NCBI RefSeq assembly: GCF_001518815.1 | Contig: NZ_CP013987.1 | Location: forward strand, 3,060,501 to 3,124,500 | Length of the DNA stretch: 64,000 nucleotides | DNA from: Pseudomonas oryzihabitans | GTDB lineage: Bacteria; Pseudomonadota; Gammaproteobacteria; Pseudomonadales; Pseudomonadaceae | Direction: 5' to 3' | In this document: piece by piece, positions 4,994 through 62,813 of the stretch | How the letters are laid out: each line of letters begins with the position of its first letter | How positions within the stretch are numbered: the first letter of the stretch is position 1 | Translations under genes and position numbers: made by a program | Notes under the pieces: generated by a model | Seen by the model: only the letters and a program-made list of their open reading frames with translations | Told to the model about the DNA's origin: nothing | The model's database searches: none

Positions 4994-6406
4994 CTAGCGC
5001 AGCTCTACCAGATGCTTTTTCAGCCCCATGGCGTCATCAGCACCCAGACTGGTCATGTGGAAGAAGCCATAGTCCTCCAGATAGCTCCAGTGACTCAGGG
5101 GCCCCTTGCTCGCCTTGCCATGCCGACACTCCAGCGTCTTGGCTCGTCCGCTCAAGGACGCCAGTAGCTGGCGGGCCTCGCCCTCGGCTACCACCTTGCA
5201 GGACACCTGGATCTCCCGCTGCTCGCGACCCTGCCGATTGCCGGTCAAAGTCTGCTGCGCCTGATAACCGACCTGACTGCCCACGGCCAGTGCCCGCCAG
5301 TCACCATTGAACGTCAGGTGTGTCAGGCTGGCCGATTCTTCGACCGGCAACCCACCGTTGTCGACCTCCGTGCGCCGTACCAGATCGATCAGGCCACGCC
5401 AGCTGAGCGCATCCATCCGTGCTGCCTTGCCCTGTGCAGTGAACCTGAACAGGCCTGGCAAGGGGCCGGCACTGACCTGCAGGGCCTGGCGATAGGGATG
5501 AGACTGGCCGGCGTAGCGACTCTCGCCCTCCTCCACCACGGTCTGAATGGCGGCACGGGGCGCGGGTAGCGCCAGCGCCTGGAGGGCCTGCAATGGCTGA
5601 GGCTGGGCCACAGGCAATTCGGTCGGAGATGCCATGGTCGAGGCTGGGACCGCGGCGGCCGGAGTGGTCGCCACCGCAGGCATTCGCGGTGCGGCCAGCA
5701 GAGCGTCACGATGATCGCATACGGCTTCCAGCACATGCCGACGTTCGACCGGAGCGGTGGTGAAGGCCTCCTGGGTCAACCTGGCCGGTTCGCTATCGGT
5801 GATGCGACCGCTGTCATCGAGGCCATAGCGCGCCAGCAGGAGGTAGCGGCGCGCCGTGCAATCCGCGGCCAGGGATTCACGCCACTGGCGCACGGGGGCG
5901 CCATAGCGCGGTGTCTTGACCGTAACGCCCAGTTGCTGCCCGCCCCAAAAACGACGGACGCCCTGACCGTCCACCAGGCTGTTGCGGTCGATGACCAGAG
6001 TATCGCCACCGGCGGAACTGGCCAGGACGCGCCAATCCGTGTTCGCCGGCTGGGCGCAAAGTGCCGCGATATCGGCACGCTGCCTGAGCGCGGCGCTCTT
6101 GGCGGTGCTCAGGGGCAGCGGTGCGGCATAGGCATTCACCTGCCCCGGATAGACTCGCTGGGCGCCATCGAGATAGAGCAGCTCCGCCTTGTCGGCGGCG
6201 CAGTCCAGAGCGACCAGCGCCGACCCCTCTTCCGGCAAGGCCAGCGCGAATTGGAGCCGAGAGCCGTCTCGTAGCACGCTTTCTGGCATGAGAGGACGAG
6301 TGAAGAGGTCTTCGGCCTGGGGAGCAGGCTCGGTCGACTGCTGCTGAAGGGTGCAGCCGGCCAGGATCGATAGCAGGCAGAGGGCGGAAAGACGACTGGG
6401 AATCAT
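4994..6406 (-). CDS. Predicted lipoprotein of unknown function, 470 aa
   Basis: The protein starts at an ATG preceded by GAGAGGA. It has a lipoprotein signal peptide with lipobox LAGC at residues 15-18, so it should be anchored to a membrane from the periplasmic side. The middle contains a low-complexity Ala/Pro/Val/Gln-rich linker at about residues 230-290 that separates two globular parts. I do not recognise either domain. The frame stays open well upstream of the chosen start, but that part carries no signal peptide and overlaps the divergent CsbD gene. It appears to be a single-gene unit. Confidence 0.7.
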   Translation of the reverse strand: MIPSRLSALCLLSILAGCTLQQQSTEPAPQAEDLFTRPLMPESVLRDGSRLQFALALPEEGSALVALDCAADKAELLYLDGAQRVYPGQVNAYAAPLPLSTAKSAALRQRADIAALCAQPANTDWRVLASSAGGDTLVIDRNSLVDGQGVRRFWGGQQLGVTVKTPRYGAPVRQWRESLAADCTARRYLLLARYGLDDSGRITDSEPARLTQEAFTTAPVERRHVLEAVCDHRDALLAAPRMPAVATTPAAAVPASTMASPTELPVAQPQPLQALQALALPAPRAAIQTVVEEGESRYAGQSHPYRQALQVSAGPLPGLFRFTAQGKAARMDALSWRGLIDLVRRTEVDNGGLPVEESASLTHLTFNGDWRALAVGSQVGYQAQQTLTGNRQGREQREIQVSCKVVAEGEARQLLASLSGRAKTLECRHGKASKGPLSHWSYLEDYGFFHMTSLGADDAMGLKKHLVELR

Positions 6407-6876: not shown

Positions 6877-7245
6877 TCACTGATTGAGGGTGAGGAGATG
6901 CTTGCGTACCGTCTCCACGATGTCGCCGATATTGAAGGGCTTCTGGAAGACGGCGTCGAACAGCTCGGAACTCTCCTGCGCCAGATGCGCCTGAGCGCCA
7001 CTCATCAGGATGATGGGAAGGTGCTGCAGGCCCTGACGTTCACGTAGCGCTTCTGCGAGCTCGCGGCCATTCATCACCGGCATCATGAAATCGGTGATGA
7101 CCAGCGACGGTAGTTCGCGATCGAATACGTCTAGCGCTCGGCGACCGTTGCTCGCCTTGACCACCATGTAGCCTTCGTCTTCAAGAGCGAAGGCCAGGAT
7201 GTCCGCTATCAGAAATTCGTCATCGACTACCAGTATCGTCGTCAT
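6877..7245 (-). CDS. Stand-alone response-regulator receiver (CheY-like)
   Basis: This 122-residue protein is a single receiver domain with the acidic pair Asp8/Asp9, the phospho-acceptor Asp52 in LVITDFMMP, a switch Ser/Thr in LMSG and the Lys-Pro of QKPF. It has no output domain, so it probably acts by protein contact. It lies 25 bases downstream of the KaiC-like gene on the same strand and is likely co-transcribed with it. No histidine kinase is in the same operon; the nearest is the LOV hybrid kinase 2.6 kb away on the other strand. A link between them is only a guess. Confidence 0.9.
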   Translation of the reverse strand: MTTILVVDDEFLIADILAFALEDEGYMVVKASNGRRALDVFDRELPSLVITDFMMPVMNGRELAEALRERQGLQHLPIILMSGAQAHLAQESSELFDAVFQKPFNIGDIVETVRKHLLTLNQ

Positions 7246-40681: not shown

Positions 40682-40887
40682 GCCCCTGCCCTGGCAGACC
40701 TCAGCCGGCGTCGTCTCCTTTCACCGCGCCGCGGACCGCTGTAGAGGCGCGGTCCCGCAGGTGCCTGGCAATGGAAGCGCCCGGTGATGGTGCCGTGCCT
40801 GTCACCACAATGGTGCAGGCCCTAGTCGAGACGTCCATAGCGGTGCACAGAGAGGCGCCCTGGCGTCCGTCAGCCGCCGGAGACACC

Positions 40888-42084
40888 ATGCCTGCCCAGT
40901 TTCCTCCTCACGCCGCGCATCTCTGGGTCGCGGGTTCGGATGCCCCGGAAAAGCCCGAGCTCAATCTGGGCTTCCTGCCCCTGAGCGACGCCGCCTCGCT
41001 AATCGTGGCGGCGACCCAGGGCTTTGGCGAGCCACACGGCCTGACCCTGAACCTGCACCGCCAGCCATCCTGGTCGGCCCTGCGCGACAACCTGCTCAAC
41101 GGCCACCTCGACGCCGCCCACTGCCTCTATGGCCTGGTCTATGGCATGCACCTGGGGCTGGGCGGCACTCCCGCCACCGACATGGCGGTGCTTATGGGTC
41201 TCGCGCAGAATGGCCAGAGCCTCAACCTGGCGCGCAGCCTGACCCGGGAAGGGGTTCAGGACACGGCCTCGCTGGTCGAGCGGATCCGCCAGCCGGGCAC
41301 CAGCCCCCTGACCCTGGCGCACACCTTTCCCACCGGCACCCACATTTTCTGGCTCTACTACTGGCTGGCCGCCCAGGGCATTCATCCGCTACGGGACGTG
41401 CGCACCGCGCTGGTACCACCACCGCAGATGCCCGAGCACCTGGCCGCCGGCCGGGTCGATGGCTTCTGCGTCGGCGAACCCTGGGGCGCCGCCGCCGTCG
41501 CCCGCGGCCAGGGTTTCACCCTGACCACCACCCAGGCGATCTGGCCGGACCATCCGGAAAAGGTGCTGGCCTGCACCGGCCGCTTCGCCGAGCGCTATCC
41601 CAATACGGCCCGGGCGTTAATCCGCACCCTGCTCGATGCCAGCCGCTTCATCGAGGAAAGTCGTGAGAACCGCCTCGGCACCGCCCAGCTGATCAGCGAT
41701 GCCGCCTACGTGAACGCCGATCCGGCGCTGCTGGCCGGACGCTTCCTCGGCCACTACGAAGATGGCCTCGACCACCGCTGGGAGGACGAACATCCCCTGG
41801 CCTTCCATCGCCAGGGCGCGGTCAACCCGCCCTATCTCTCCGACGGCCTCTGGTTCCTTACCCAGTTCCGCCGCTGGGGCCTGCTGCGCGAGGACCCGGA
41901 CTACTTGGCCATCGCCGAGGCCGTGCAATGCACCGAGCTGTACCGCGAGGCTGCCACCGAGCTCGGTCTGGCGGTACCGCCGCCCCGGCGCAGCAGCACC
42001 CTGTTCGACGGTCGCACCTGGGACGGCAGTGATCCAGCCGGTTACGCCCGCAGCTTCGCCATCCACGCGCTCAGCGATCACTAG
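40888..42084 (+). CDS. nasS: NasS-type nitrate/nitrite sensor (periplasmic-binding fold, cytoplasmic)
   Basis: NasS binds NasT in the absence of nitrate or nitrite and releases it when the ligand binds. The 398-residue protein is a NrtA/CmpA-like binding fold without a signal peptide, which fits a cytoplasmic sensor rather than a transport protein. Typical stretches are LNLGFLPLSDAASLIVA, HCLYGLVYGMHLGLGG and GFCVGEPWGAAAV. The start was chosen at MPAQF with GGAG 6 bases upstream; an earlier ATG lacks such a site. The gap to nasT is 11 bases. Confidence 0.88.
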   Translation: MPAQFPPHAAHLWVAGSDAPEKPELNLGFLPLSDAASLIVAATQGFGEPHGLTLNLHRQPSWSALRDNLLNGHLDAAHCLYGLVYGMHLGLGGTPATDMAVLMGLAQNGQSLNLARSLTREGVQDTASLVERIRQPGTSPLTLAHTFPTGTHIFWLYYWLAAQGIHPLRDVRTALVPPPQMPEHLAAGRVDGFCVGEPWGAAAVARGQGFTLTTTQAIWPDHPEKVLACTGRFAERYPNTARALIRTLLDASRFIEESRENRLGTAQLISDAAYVNADPALLAGRFLGHYEDGLDHRWEDEHPLAFHRQGAVNPPYLSDGLWFLTQFRRWGLLREDPDYLAIAEAVQCTELYREAATELGLAVPPPRRSSTLFDGRTWDGSDPAGYARSFAIHALSDH

Positions 42085-42095
42085 GGAGAACGACC

Positions 42096-42668
42096 TTGCG
42101 CATTCTGCTCATCGACGACACCCCCAAGCAGGTCGGCCGCCTGAAGAGCGCGCTGATCGAAGCCGGTTTCGAGGTCATCGAGGAATCCGGCCTGACCATC
42201 GACCTGCCGGCGCGCATCGAGACGCTACGGCCGGACGTCATCCTGTTCGACACCCAGTCACCCGGTCGCGACGTCATGGAACAGGTCTGTCTGGTGACCC
42301 GCGACCAGCCGCGCCCCATCGTCATGTTCACCGACGAACACGACCCGGCGGTGATGCGCCGGGCCATCCAGTCCGGCGTAAGCGCCTATATCGTGGAGGG
42401 CATCCAGACCAGTCGCCTGCAGGCCATCATCGACGTCGCCCGCGCCCGCTTCGAGACCGACCAGGCGCTGCGCGCCGAACTCCAGGCCCGCGAGCAGCAG
42501 TTGCTGGAGCGCAAGAAGGTCGACCAGGCCAAGGGCCTGCTGATGAAGATGCGTGGTTGCAGCGAGGACGAGGCCTACACCCTGATGCGCCGCCAGGCCA
42601 TGAGCAAGCAACAGAAGCTGATCCAGGTGGCCGACCAGATCATCGCCATGAGCGAATTGCTGGGCTGA
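42096..42668 (+). CDS. nasT: NasT, ANTAR-domain antiterminator
   Basis: NasT binds hairpins in the leader of nitrate-assimilation mRNAs and prevents termination. The 190-residue protein has a receiver-like domain with Asp7/Asp8 and Asp52. A coiled helix leads into the RNA-binding ANTAR domain (about 130-186), recognisable in KVDQAKGLLMKMRGCSEDEA and TLMRRQAM. It begins with TTG, supported by GGGAGAA upstream. It forms a two-gene operon with nasS. A likely target leader lies at 46364-46468. Confidence 0.92.
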   Translation: MRILLIDDTPKQVGRLKSALIEAGFEVIEESGLTIDLPARIETLRPDVILFDTQSPGRDVMEQVCLVTRDQPRPIVMFTDEHDPAVMRRAIQSGVSAYIVEGIQTSRLQAIIDVARARFETDQALRAELQAREQQLLERKKVDQAKGLLMKMRGCSEDEAYTLMRRQAMSKQQKLIQVADQIIAMSELLG

Positions 42669-46165: not shown

Positions 46166-46182
46166 TAGGGTTATCCCGATAG

Positions 46183-46216
46183 AAAAGGCCGTGGCGAGTG
46201 ATCGCCACGGCCTTTT
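46183..46216 (+). terminator. Intrinsic terminator of the DUF4142 gene
   Basis: Perfect 15-bp arms (AAAAGGCCGTGGCGA and its complement) enclose a four-base loop, followed by a T-rich tail. It isolates the DUF4142 transcript from the nitrate transporter leader. Confidence 0.9.
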
Positions 46217-46287
46217 CTTTTAGCCTATCGCGGCCGCTCCCACAGGGCGCCAATAGAGGGCGACTTTTTGTAGCTACGCCCAATCCT

Positions 46288-46303
46288 TGGGCGGTGGCTT
46301 GCC
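46288..46303 (+). promoter_or_regulatory. Candidate sigma-54 promoter of the nitrate transporter
   Basis: TGGGCGGTGGCTTGCC has the invariant GG and GC spaced by 10 bases and a full TTGC at -12, but only partly matches the -24 block. Nitrogen-regulated genes commonly use sigma-54. Transcription would start near 46314, leaving a leader of about 185 bases that contains the hairpins and terminator listed next. Confidence 0.45.
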
Positions 46304-46363
46304 CCGATACCCATTCCGAATCCCGCCAAGGCCCGTGACTACCGGGCTCGCACGACTTGGCGT

Positions 46364-46407
46364 CGCTCTTGCAAAGACCTGGGCAGCGGTGGCCAACGGC
46401 GGTCACC
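46364..46407 (+). promoter_or_regulatory. ANTAR-type RNA hairpins in the nitrate transporter leader
   Basis: The second hairpin (46388-46407) has a 7-bp stem, GGTGGCC with GGTCACC including one G-U pair. Its hexaloop AACGGC has the A at position 1 and G at position 4 that ANTAR proteins recognise. The first (46364-46388) is less regular: CGCTCTT pairs with GGGCAGCG around a loop holding AAAGAC, again A at 1 and G at 4. The arms of the two touch, as in known two-hairpin ANTAR targets. Confidence 0.55.
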
Positions 46408-46419
46408 CCAATCGACAAA

Positions 46420-46468
46420 GGCGTCAGTTCACCTCCCGGCAACGGGTCAGGGTGACTGGCGCCTTTTT
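46420..46468 (+). terminator. Leader terminator, probably relieved by NasT
   Basis: A long stem starting GGCGTCAG and closing with CTGGCGCC contains an inner CCCG-GCAA-CGGG hairpin and is followed by TTTTT. It stands 29 bases before the transporter ATG, so it acts on the leader and not on the previous gene, which has its own terminator. Confidence 0.75.
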
Positions 46469-46497
46469 CATGCCCGTGACGTGCCCGAGGTGCCTCC

Positions 46498-47709
46498 ATG
46501 AGTCCCAGTTTCTGGAAAGCCGGCCATGCGCCGACCCTGTTCGCCGCCTTCCTGTACTTCGACCTCAGCTTCATGGTCTGGTACGTGCTCGGCCCCATGG
46601 CCGTGCAGATCGCCACCGACCTGCAATTGACCACCCAGCAGCGCAGCCTGATGGTGGCGACGCCCATCCTCGCCGGGGCGGTCCTGCGCCTGATCCTGGG
46701 CTTCGTCGCTGATCGACTGTCGCCGAAGACCGCCGGCATCATCGGCCAGGTGGTGGTGATCCTGGCGCTGCTGGTGGCCTGGCAGCACGGCGTGCACAGC
46801 TATGAGCAAACCCTGGTGCTGGGCCTGTTCCTCGGCTTCGCCGGGGCCTCCTTCGCCGTGGCCCTGCCGCTGGCCTCCCAGTGGTATCCGCCGCAGCACC
46901 AGGGCAAGGCCCTGGGCATCGCCGGCGCCGGCAATTCCGGCACCGTGTTAGCCGCTCTCTTCGCCCCGGCGCTGGCCAAGGCCTTTGGCTGGACCAACGT
47001 GTTCGGCTTCGCGCTGATCCCGTTGATCCTGACCCTGGTGGTCTTCGTGCTCTGTGCGCGCAACGCACCGGAACGCCCGGCCCCGAAGAAGCTGGCGGAC
47101 TACGCCCGTGCCCTGGGCGACCAGGACAGCTGGTGGTTCATGTTCTTCTACAGCGTGACCTTTGGTGGCTTCCTGGGTCTGGCCAGCACCCTGCCCGGCT
47201 ACTTCCATGACCAGTACGCCCTGGAACCGGTGATCGCCGGCTACTACACCGCCGCCTGCGTCTTCGCTGGCAGCCTGATGCGGCCCCTGGGCGGCGCCCT
47301 GGCCGACCGCATCGGTGGCATCCGTGCCTTGCTGGGCATGTACACCGTGGCGGCCATCTGCATCGCCGCCGTGGGCTTCCACCTGCCCAGCGCCATGGCC
47401 GCCCTGGCGCTGTTCGTGGTCGCCATGCTCAGCCTGGGCGCCGGCAACGGCGCGGTGTTCCAGCTGGTGCCCCAGCGCTTTCGCAAGGAGATCGGCGTCA
47501 TGACCGGACTGATCGGCATGGCGGGCGGCATCGGCGGCTTCGCCCTCACCGCGGGCCTGGGCACGATCAAGCAGGCCACCGGTGACTACCAGCTCGGCCT
47601 CTGGCTGTTCGCGGGCCTGGGCGTACTCGCCTGGTTCGGCCTGCTGAGCGTCAAGCGCCGCTGGCGCACCACGTGGGGCTCGGCTGCGGTCACGGCGGCA
47701 CGCGTCTGA
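46498..47709 (+). CDS. NarK/NasA-type nitrate/nitrite MFS transporter
   Basis: The 403-residue protein belongs to the nitrate-nitrite porter branch of the MFS. It has about twelve membrane helices and the nitrate signature stretches GFAGASFAVALPLASQWYPP (helix 5) and GAGNGAVFQLVPQRF (helix 11), with GAGNSGTV between. It is likely the assimilatory nitrate importer nasA. The leader suggests control by nitrogen status and NasT. The reductase genes that normally follow are absent; a terminator and GNAT genes come next. Confidence 0.9.
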   Translation: MSPSFWKAGHAPTLFAAFLYFDLSFMVWYVLGPMAVQIATDLQLTTQQRSLMVATPILAGAVLRLILGFVADRLSPKTAGIIGQVVVILALLVAWQHGVHSYEQTLVLGLFLGFAGASFAVALPLASQWYPPQHQGKALGIAGAGNSGTVLAALFAPALAKAFGWTNVFGFALIPLILTLVVFVLCARNAPERPAPKKLADYARALGDQDSWWFMFFYSVTFGGFLGLASTLPGYFHDQYALEPVIAGYYTAACVFAGSLMRPLGGALADRIGGIRALLGMYTVAAICIAAVGFHLPSAMAALALFVVAMLSLGAGNGAVFQLVPQRFRKEIGVMTGLIGMAGGIGGFALTAGLGTIKQATGDYQLGLWLFAGLGVLAWFGLLSVKRRWRTTWGSAAVTAARV

Positions 47710-62293: not shown

Positions 62294-62740
62294 TCAGTTG
62301 TCCAGGGCCGGGCGCTGGCCGGAGATGGCGATGCGCTTGGGCTTGGCTTCTTCCGGGATCACCCGCACCAGCTCGATGCTCAGCAGGCCATGCTTGAGAT
62401 CGGCGCCCTGCACCTCGATATGGTCGGCGAGGCGGAAGGACAGCTTGAAGGCGCGTTGGGCGATGCCCTGATGCAGGAATGTCACGCTCTCGGCGCTGTT
62501 TTCGCGCCGGCCGCCCTTGACGGTGAGAACGCCACGCTCGACTTCGATTTCCAGGTCATCTTCCTGGAGACCGGCGGCGGCGATCACGATGCGATACTGG
62601 TCGTCACCGTGCTTCTCGACGTTGTAGGGCGGATAGGAACTGCCAGCGTCGTTGCGCAAGGCGGATTCGAACAGGTCGTTGAACCGGTCGAAGCCAACGG
62701 AATGACGGAAGAGCGGGGCCAGGGACAGTACGTTGCTCAT
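62294..62740 (-). CDS. ibpA: Small heat-shock protein (Hsp20/IbpA family)
   Basis: IbpA binds misfolded proteins under heat stress. The 148-residue protein has the alpha-crystallin domain, from YPPYNVEKHGDDQYRIVIAAAG (about 36-57) to HGLLSIELVRVIPE, with the GVLTV strand. A short N-terminal part RFNDLFESAL and the C-terminal I-A-I motif in KRIAISG are typical. The ATG has AGGAGA upstream. Control appears to be double: a heat-shock promoter and an RNA thermometer-like leader. Confidence 0.94.
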   Translation of the reverse strand: MSNVLSLAPLFRHSVGFDRFNDLFESALRNDAGSSYPPYNVEKHGDDQYRIVIAAAGLQEDDLEIEVERGVLTVKGGRRENSAESVTFLHQGIAQRAFKLSFRLADHIEVQGADLKHGLLSIELVRVIPEEAKPKRIAISGQRPALDN

Positions 62741-62806
62741 GGTGAATCTCCTGATAGGTTCAGCAAGTTTCGGTATTGCCTGCGGGACCCGACTTCGGCA
62801 TCCCGC
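62741..62806 (-). promoter_or_regulatory. ROSE-like RNA thermometer in the ibpA leader
   Basis: On the minus strand the leader contains TTGCT (62762-62766) a few bases before the AGGAG ribosome-binding site (62748-62752), with the loop GAACCTATC between. Pairing of a U-Y-GCU motif with the ribosome-binding site is the hallmark of ROSE elements, which melt on heating. A second hairpin with TGCGGGA / TCCCGCA arms (62781-62807) sits upstream, also as expected. Confidence 0.6.
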
Positions 62807-62813
62807 ACGAACC

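Follow-up and report, generated by a model that had tools for sequence, protein, structure and literature searches.

A leader with a predicted sigma54 promoter and ANTAR-type hairpins: a probable NasT target before a NarK-type transporter gene of Pseudomonas oryzihabitans

The leader of a NarK-type transporter gene in Pseudomonas oryzihabitans very probably reads two signals: a sigma54 promoter would start its transcript under nitrogen limitation, and NasT would prevent termination before the transporter gene when nitrate is present. We base this reading on folding, comparison with relatives, and domain searches in a stretch of 64,000 nucleotides (the window). Since EutV, Paracoccus NasT, and NalA provide precedents for both the mechanism and the architecture, the transporter leader is a further example of an established type. 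With this reading, an Rfam family labelled merely as the cis-regulatory ‘narK RNA’ gains a specific candidate function as a NasT-controlled attenuator. Relative to an earlier note on this DNA, the hairpin pair and the bases of interest are corrected, and a compact nitrate regulon of four leaders is drawn.

Architecture and folding of the leader

The leader follows the terminator of a DUF4142 gene and precedes the transporter ATG at 46498; the earlier note had rightly placed a hairpin and a terminator in this gap. The gene (46498–47709, + strand) encodes a NarK family nitrate/nitrite MFS transporter of 403 aa (TIGR00886, 321.7 bits; cut-off 311.7). An Rfam scan matched RF03032, narK RNA, at 46359–46427 (+ strand), a stretch covering the promoter and the two hairpins P1 and P2. 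The score of 57.6 bits is above the gathering cut-off of 43.2 and places the leader in this family, with an E-value of 3.4e-8 over the entire window. The terms ‘narK RNA’, ‘RF03032’, and ‘narK motif’ were not found in the literature searched, the coverage of which was partial. Elsewhere in the window, a ROSE_3 RNA thermometer was matched at 62735–62807 (− strand; 60.8 bits, cut-off 43).

P1 (46388–46407, + strand) has the 7-bp stem and the hexaloop AACGGC (46395–46400, with A1 and G4) described earlier, and is indicated by folding, covariation, and loop conservation. P2 (46414–46425, + strand) reads GAC-AAAGGC-GUC and carries the hexaloop AAAGGC at 46417–46422, also with A1 and G4; it is drawn from the fold of a shortened leader and from conservation. 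The two loops are 22 nt apart. The strong intrinsic terminator (46417–46468, + strand; fold of 46414–46470) ends in the TTTTT already noticed in the earlier note, a U-run at 46464–46468. Its 5' arm starts within the P2 loop and includes the 3' strand of that hairpin. The leader shows the dual-hairpin form of ANTAR targets, namely hexaloops on stems of at least 3 bp (7 bp in P1 and 3 bp in P2) with A1 and G4 in both, the second hairpin overlapping the terminator.

Folding of 46384–46470 gave −48 kcal/mol against −27.8 ± 3.0 kcal/mol in shuffles (z −6.8), mostly from the terminator: 46414–46470 folded at −36.1 kcal/mol (z −7.1), and none of 200 shuffles was as stable. P1 and P2 alone (46384–46432) did not stand out in stability (z −1.1), as 25 of 200 shuffles did equally well. 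P2 and the terminator are mutually exclusive in folding; a leader cut before the terminator is complete folded into P1 and P2, and the full leader into P1 and the terminator. The same two folds were predicted for the cobA, nirB, and nitrate-reductase-like leaders of this genome, the P2 of the last with an A·C mismatch. Two A1/G4 hexaloops on stems of at least 4 and 3 pairs arose in 2 of 400 shuffled leaders, and together with an overlapping terminator in none of the 400. A simple terminator scan gave one site (46446–46460) against 0.5 expected.

Conservation and covariation among relatives

We compared 101 RF03032 loci, which are not a random sample: 3 are from this genome, 30 are the best-scoring of the family, 56 were hand-picked from the family matches listed, and 12 are from the class. 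The alignment holds 74 leaders. The partial match L099 was removed ahead of dereplication, which kept 75, and L101 was dropped prior to alignment; the totals over 101 loci include both. Across the 74 dereplicated leaders, P1 and P2 were paired in 95.8% of cells, and their covariation score was 0.466; shuffles gave 0.173 ± 0.012, and sliding the pairing gave no more than 0.095. The covariation check proposed in the earlier note came out in favor of the P1/P2 pair, with nearly all of the signal in P1, and against the upstream hairpin that it had named as partner. Double changes were seen at six of the seven P1 pairs. P2 was paired in 93.6% of cells and showed double changes at one of its four pairs; with so short a stem (3 bp here) and hardly any variation in it, its covariation is weak. 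Its third pair is non-standard in 13 of the 74 leaders.

Both loops retain A1 and G4 almost throughout the 74 leaders. A1, A2, and G4 of the P1 loop are each found in 74 of 74, with positions 3, 5, and 6 variable, and A1 and G4 of the P2 loop are each found in 73 of 74. The spacing from loop to loop is 22–25 in 60 of 74. A strict automatic test, asking for an overlapping terminator and for stems without breaks (4 pairs or more in P1, 3 or more in P2), was passed by only 74 of the 101 RF03032 loci. The 27 failures stand before a nitrate-reductase-like gene (18), NarK (7), a NasS/NrtA-like gene (1), and no gene (1). Within the alignment, an A·C mismatch at the third P2 pair (GAC-loop-GCC) occurs in 12 of the 13 nitrate-reductase-like leaders (L002 at 1494–1575 on the − strand, L040, L043, L047, L061, L067, L070, L071, L076, L078, L079, and L080) and in none of the 61 others; perhaps it tunes the affinity for NasT. 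One of the 61 other leaders, L100, has A·G at this pair.

As an independent test of the promoter, public genomes were scanned with a pattern that specified nothing beyond the two loops and the GAC/GUC of P2. At least 118 stretches matched, with at least 91 sites in at least 80 loci; the 80 loci listed were all used, 63 of their sites being in loci with nitrate genes and 28 in others. Among the matches listed, an overlapping terminator, which the scan had not asked for, was present at 60 of the 63 nitrate-gene sites and 2 of the 28 others, and a P1 stem of at least 4 pairs at 56 of 63 and 2 of 28.

The sigma54 promoter and the upstream AAAGAC stretch

Sigma54 promoters have a −24/−12 form, GG-N10-GC, with a T before the GG and a C after. 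A promoter of this kind (RpoN), TTGG-CGTCGCTCTT-GCA, is predicted at 46357–46373 (+ strand), where ten bases separate the GG at 46359–46360 from the GC at 46371–46372, and in the genome RpoN was matched once, as was NtrC, the latter above its cut-off. GG-N10-GC is present in 98 of the 101 RF03032 loci, although the search model itself contains these letters. It is also present in 30 of 30 loci of P11 (RF00625), the best 30 of 72 listed matches, and so is the strict sigma54 pattern (30/30). In the pattern scan, the strict form lies 30–46 bases before the P1 loop at 30 of the 63 nitrate-gene sites and at none of the 28 others among the matches listed; the loose GG-N10-GC was found at 36 of 63 and 5 of 28, again among the matches listed.

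In 37 of the 74 leaders P1 stands at a distance of 16 from the −12 C, and in 71 of them at 14–18. If transcription began 12 bases past that C, P1 would thus fall at about +5. In the transporter leader such a start would be near 46384, and 25 of the 69 bases (about a third) of the stretch matched by RF03032 would precede the start. Both the RF03032 and the RF00625 models include an apparent sigma54 promoter near the 5' end, and the Rfam drawing of P11 pairs GCA with UGC as an RNA hairpin, letters that are those of the promoter boxes.

A promoter scan limited to sigma70 found no sigma70 promoters. The loose sigma54 pattern with 3 mismatches had 316 matches against 304 expected and is uninformative alone. 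No NtrC-like site (TGCACC-N5-GGTGCA, up to 3 mismatches) was found in 46166–46358, and in the window as a whole the pattern is no commoner than chance would give (56 matches against 55.9 expected). NtrC is a candidate activator of the leader. One NtrC-like site with 2 mismatches, at 40801–40817, lies close to where nasS is listed to begin, subject to the same chance level.

The promoter boxes overlap the looser AAAGAC hairpin that the earlier note had taken as the upstream partner of P1. In such an arrangement, the ANTAR pair would be the AAAGAC and AACGGC hairpins, followed by a separate terminator. The letters AAAGAC do exist at 46373–46378, with A1 and G4, but a C flanks them on either side, and no hexaloop can close there. 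Shuffling mostly gave folds at least as stable as that of the stretch itself (193 and 183 of 200), and the sole helix found there (46365–46368/46381–46384) is paired in 42.5% of cells across the 74 relatives, compared with 41.6% when shuffled, which leaves no covariation. The GG-N10-GC boxes that it would overlap are conserved across relatives, and NasT bound to such a pair would have no connection to the terminator. On its poor folding and absent covariation we reject the upstream hairpin as the ANTAR partner, and we regard a pair built on it as extremely improbable. The AAAGAC region is most likely the −12 region of the sigma54 promoter and is probably not transcribed.

Linking the leader to NasT

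The nasS-nasT pair reported upstream in the earlier note is present, nasT ending at 42668, 3.7 kb away (3.8 kb in that note). nasS (40771–42084, + strand) encodes a nitrate sensor of the NrtA/CmpA kind (NMT1_2 PF13379, 6.4e-86; NrtA 2g29, 7.2e-62), and nasT (42096–42668, + strand) a receiver and ANTAR protein of 190 aa with a TTG start as listed (PF03861, 6.5e-18; PF00072, 2.8e-10). The pair has the domains of a NasS-NasT system, PF00072 and PF03861 in NasT and PF13379 with NrtA similarity in NasS. nasS probably begins later than listed; the NrtA (2g29) similarity sets in at residue 51, and the ATG at 40888 fits better.

The window's nasT is the only ANTAR match found in the genome. Among 198 genomes of the family, the RNA was found in 152 (E ≤ 0.01; 137 over the cut-off) and an ANTAR gene in 158. 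Both are present in 151 genomes, the RNA alone in 1, the gene alone in 7, and neither in 39, a co-occurrence of 151/152 (6e-33, kinship ignored). The one genome with the RNA and no ANTAR gene, G035, has a match below the cut-off (E 0.005). In the class the RNA is rare and weak outside the family, with 13 of 274 genomes at E ≤ 0.001 and 3 over the cut-off; ANTAR genes occur in 12 of these 13 against 87 of 274 overall (6e-6, kinship ignored). All of these counts take any ANTAR gene, NasR and AmiR types included. Several class-level matches (G218, G225, G324, G365, and G447) lie within 300 bases after the ANTAR match. L101 (G298), the exception among the 13, was rejected as a target; it is a weak RF03032 match inside a 679-codon open frame, in a genome with no ANTAR match.

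NasT is similar to EutV (6wsh, 1.8e-18). It keeps the EutV residues that contact G4 (R142, K149, E160, and Y164) and also K143 and M172, and it differs at K147, N173, R175, and R177, which are Q, S, Q, and K in NasT; these assignments apply an inferred shift of two to the numbering of the paper. A triple change in EutV, N173A/R175A/R177A, is described as abolishing binding.

P1 and P2 could instead be read by a riboswitch or another factor, such as a small molecule or another RNA-binding protein. The Rfam table gives RF03032 as a plain cis-regulatory ‘narK RNA’, and NasT is assigned to the leader here by inference. The ANTAR hallmarks that could be checked are nevertheless present, apart from the weak covariation of P2; the genome has a single ANTAR match, the RNA and ANTAR genes co-occur, and hairpin-bearing NasT leaders have been tested in Paracoccus, as described in PMC3795266 and PMC5424462. 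A reader other than NasT is very improbable. The earlier proposal of NasT antitermination before the transporter holds well, given the covariation, the loop conservation, the co-occurrence with ANTAR genes, the downstream genes, and the single ANTAR gene in the genome; the partner hairpin that it named was wrong, and P2 was missed.

In Paracoccus, NasT is reported to bind the nasA leader, and hairpin changes have effects (PMC3795266; PMC5424462), with nitrate dissociating NasS from NasT (PMC3795266). P. putida without nasT is described as showing neither growth on nitrate nor depletion of nitrate from the medium (PMC7261876). A narK operon of Bradyrhizobium, which has predicted NasT hairpins, is reported to be higher in a nasT mutant under denitrifying conditions (PMC6759348), so the presence of the hairpins is no proof of activation.

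We propose the following sequence of events for the transporter leader. Under nitrogen limitation, sigma54 polymerase would start near 46384, and P1 and then P2 would fold as the first RNA is made. Judging from NasS-NasT of Paracoccus, NasS would hold NasT when nitrate is absent. The 5' arm of the terminator, starting in the P2 loop, would then pair with the 3' arm, and transcription would end at the U-run, 29 nt short of the transporter start codon, an ATG. When nitrate is present, freed NasT (REC-ANTAR) would bind both A1/G4 hexaloops and hold P2. The terminator could then not form, and the NarK-type transporter would be made. The leader would thus be nitrate-responsive, and the same device stands before the nitrate-reductase-like gene, nirB, and cobA in this genome.

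Other leaders in the genome and among relatives

A second model, R1, covers P1 and P2 without the promoter and was built from 54 of the 74 leaders, picked by hand. Its strong sites in the genome are the window leader (52.3 bits), the leader of the nitrate-reductase-like gene (45.8 bits), and that of cobA (34.1 bits), all three of which contributed to the model; the next site scores 17.9 bits. The nirB leader is below every threshold, with a P11 match of 27.6 bits against a cut-off of 70 and no R1 or listed P11-survey match. By eye and folding, it has GG-N10-GC, P1 with AACGGC, P2 with AAAGGC, and an overlapping terminator, at a loop spacing of 72 bases. The genome thus holds four such leaders, before the transporter gene, the nitrate-reductase-like gene, nirB, and cobA, one site each for transport, probably nitrate reduction, nitrite reduction, and siroheme synthesis. 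NirB and CobA are above their NCBIfam cut-offs. The nitrate-reductase-like gene is read as such from its molybdopterin domains, its fused flavodoxin-reductase half, and its divergent orientation to nirB; its protein is below all listed NCBIfam cut-offs, the closest being formate dehydrogenase alpha (533 of 666 bits) and then NasC (472 of 1100).

Downstream of the 101 RF03032 loci we found NarK (69), a nitrate-reductase-like gene (19), a NasS/NrtA-like gene (8), NirB (1), CobA (1), and no gene (3). L005 was rejected as a target; it scores 22.8 bits and lies inside an opposite-strand frame of 565 aa that is lactate-permease-like by eye. Among the matches listed in the pattern scan, some Pseudomonas contigs have an extra leader copy directly before nasS (L123 at 1224–1256, +; L138 at 5836–5868, +; L140 at 6227–6259, −; L180 at 96–128, +; L186 at 7174–7206, +), with just 2 unbroken P1 pairs in four of the five. 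A leader at this place suggests feedback on the sensor itself. Betaproteobacterial contigs (L121, L122, L130, L150, L152, L193, and others) have the leader before an NrtA-like gene, close after a NasT-like gene. In the six loci named, the NrtA-like genes match NasS at 46–51% and the leaders have the terminator; the sigma54 form is absent in five of the six.

Our P11 set (L236–L265) is the best 30 of 72 listed RF00625 matches in 99 genomes, and the counts that follow refer to these 30. They precede NirB in 29 and CobA in 1, and 28 show the dual hexaloop with an overlapping terminator. A third, middle hexaloop hairpin, CCCG-A..GA.-CGGG, is found in these P11/nirB leaders, 22–24 nt after the P1 loop and 17–20 before the P2 loop, with A1 in 29 of 30 and G4 and A5 in 30 of 30 each. 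Since the middle stem shows one compensatory change, its support comes from loop conservation and not from covariation. The way in which an ANTAR dimer engages a pair of hexaloops is a question raised in PMC8934654, and these three-hexaloop leaders bear on it.

P11 also brings in the reading that the leader is mainly a released small RNA (P1-P2-terminator) acting elsewhere, with antitermination secondary, a role proposed for P11 of P. aeruginosa. P11 has this architecture too, before nirB in 29 of the 30 loci, and P11 of PA14 is described in PMC12080996 as a small RNA regulating the nitrogen assimilation operon. The leader nonetheless stands directly before the gene that it would control, and the overlap of P2 with the terminator is kept across genera. 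A mainly trans-acting role is very improbable; the small-RNA and antitermination roles are compatible rather than exclusive.

More tentatively, RF03032 and P11 may be one composite device, in which an untranscribed sigma54 promoter stands at a set distance before ANTAR hexaloops, repeated before the transporter, nitrate-reductase, nirB, and cobA genes and tuned to each; we hold this as a possibility that is somewhat less probable than its opposite. The transporter version would carry two hexaloops, that of the nitrate reductase a mismatched P2, and that of nirB a three-hexaloop array with its middle hairpin at the canonical 22–24 nt. If this were true, rising nitrate would lead NasT to open the genes one after another in a fixed sequence.

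Comparison with known systems

The two-signal leader proposed here differs from the printed RF03032 model, which pairs P1 alone and leaves P2 unpaired, and the first 15 positions of which are read here as promoter DNA. Among nitrate systems, Klebsiella nasF is under sigma54 control. Like the transporter leader, the Klebsiella oxytoca nasF/NasR system has nitrate-responsive ANTAR antitermination, with A1 and G4 of the hexaloop described as important (PMC3369931); unlike it, NasR itself senses nitrate through a NIT domain, whereas here NasS would sense nitrate and NasT would bind the RNA. The eutP/EutV system of Enterococcus faecalis also has a pair of A1/G4 hexaloops, the second over the terminator (PMC3369931; PMC8934654), and by the printed numbering A29/A53 its loops are 24 nt apart (PMC3369931). 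It differs in its signal, ethanolamine through the EutW/EutV pathway, and the parts of these papers drawn on note no sigma54 promoter.

The closest likeness is with NalA, the leader of nirBD, which a review describes as starting at a sigma54 promoter under NtrC and needing NasT (PMC12830290). NalA is probably P11, judging from the shared position and the literature. NalA/P11 of Pseudomonas nirBD and the transporter leader belong to the same host family, and both have sigma54 boxes directly before the hairpins and a P2 hexaloop AAAGGC that overlaps the terminator. They differ in the gene that follows, here one for a NarK-type transporter, and in the number of hexaloops, with two at 22 nt in the transporter leader and three in P11.
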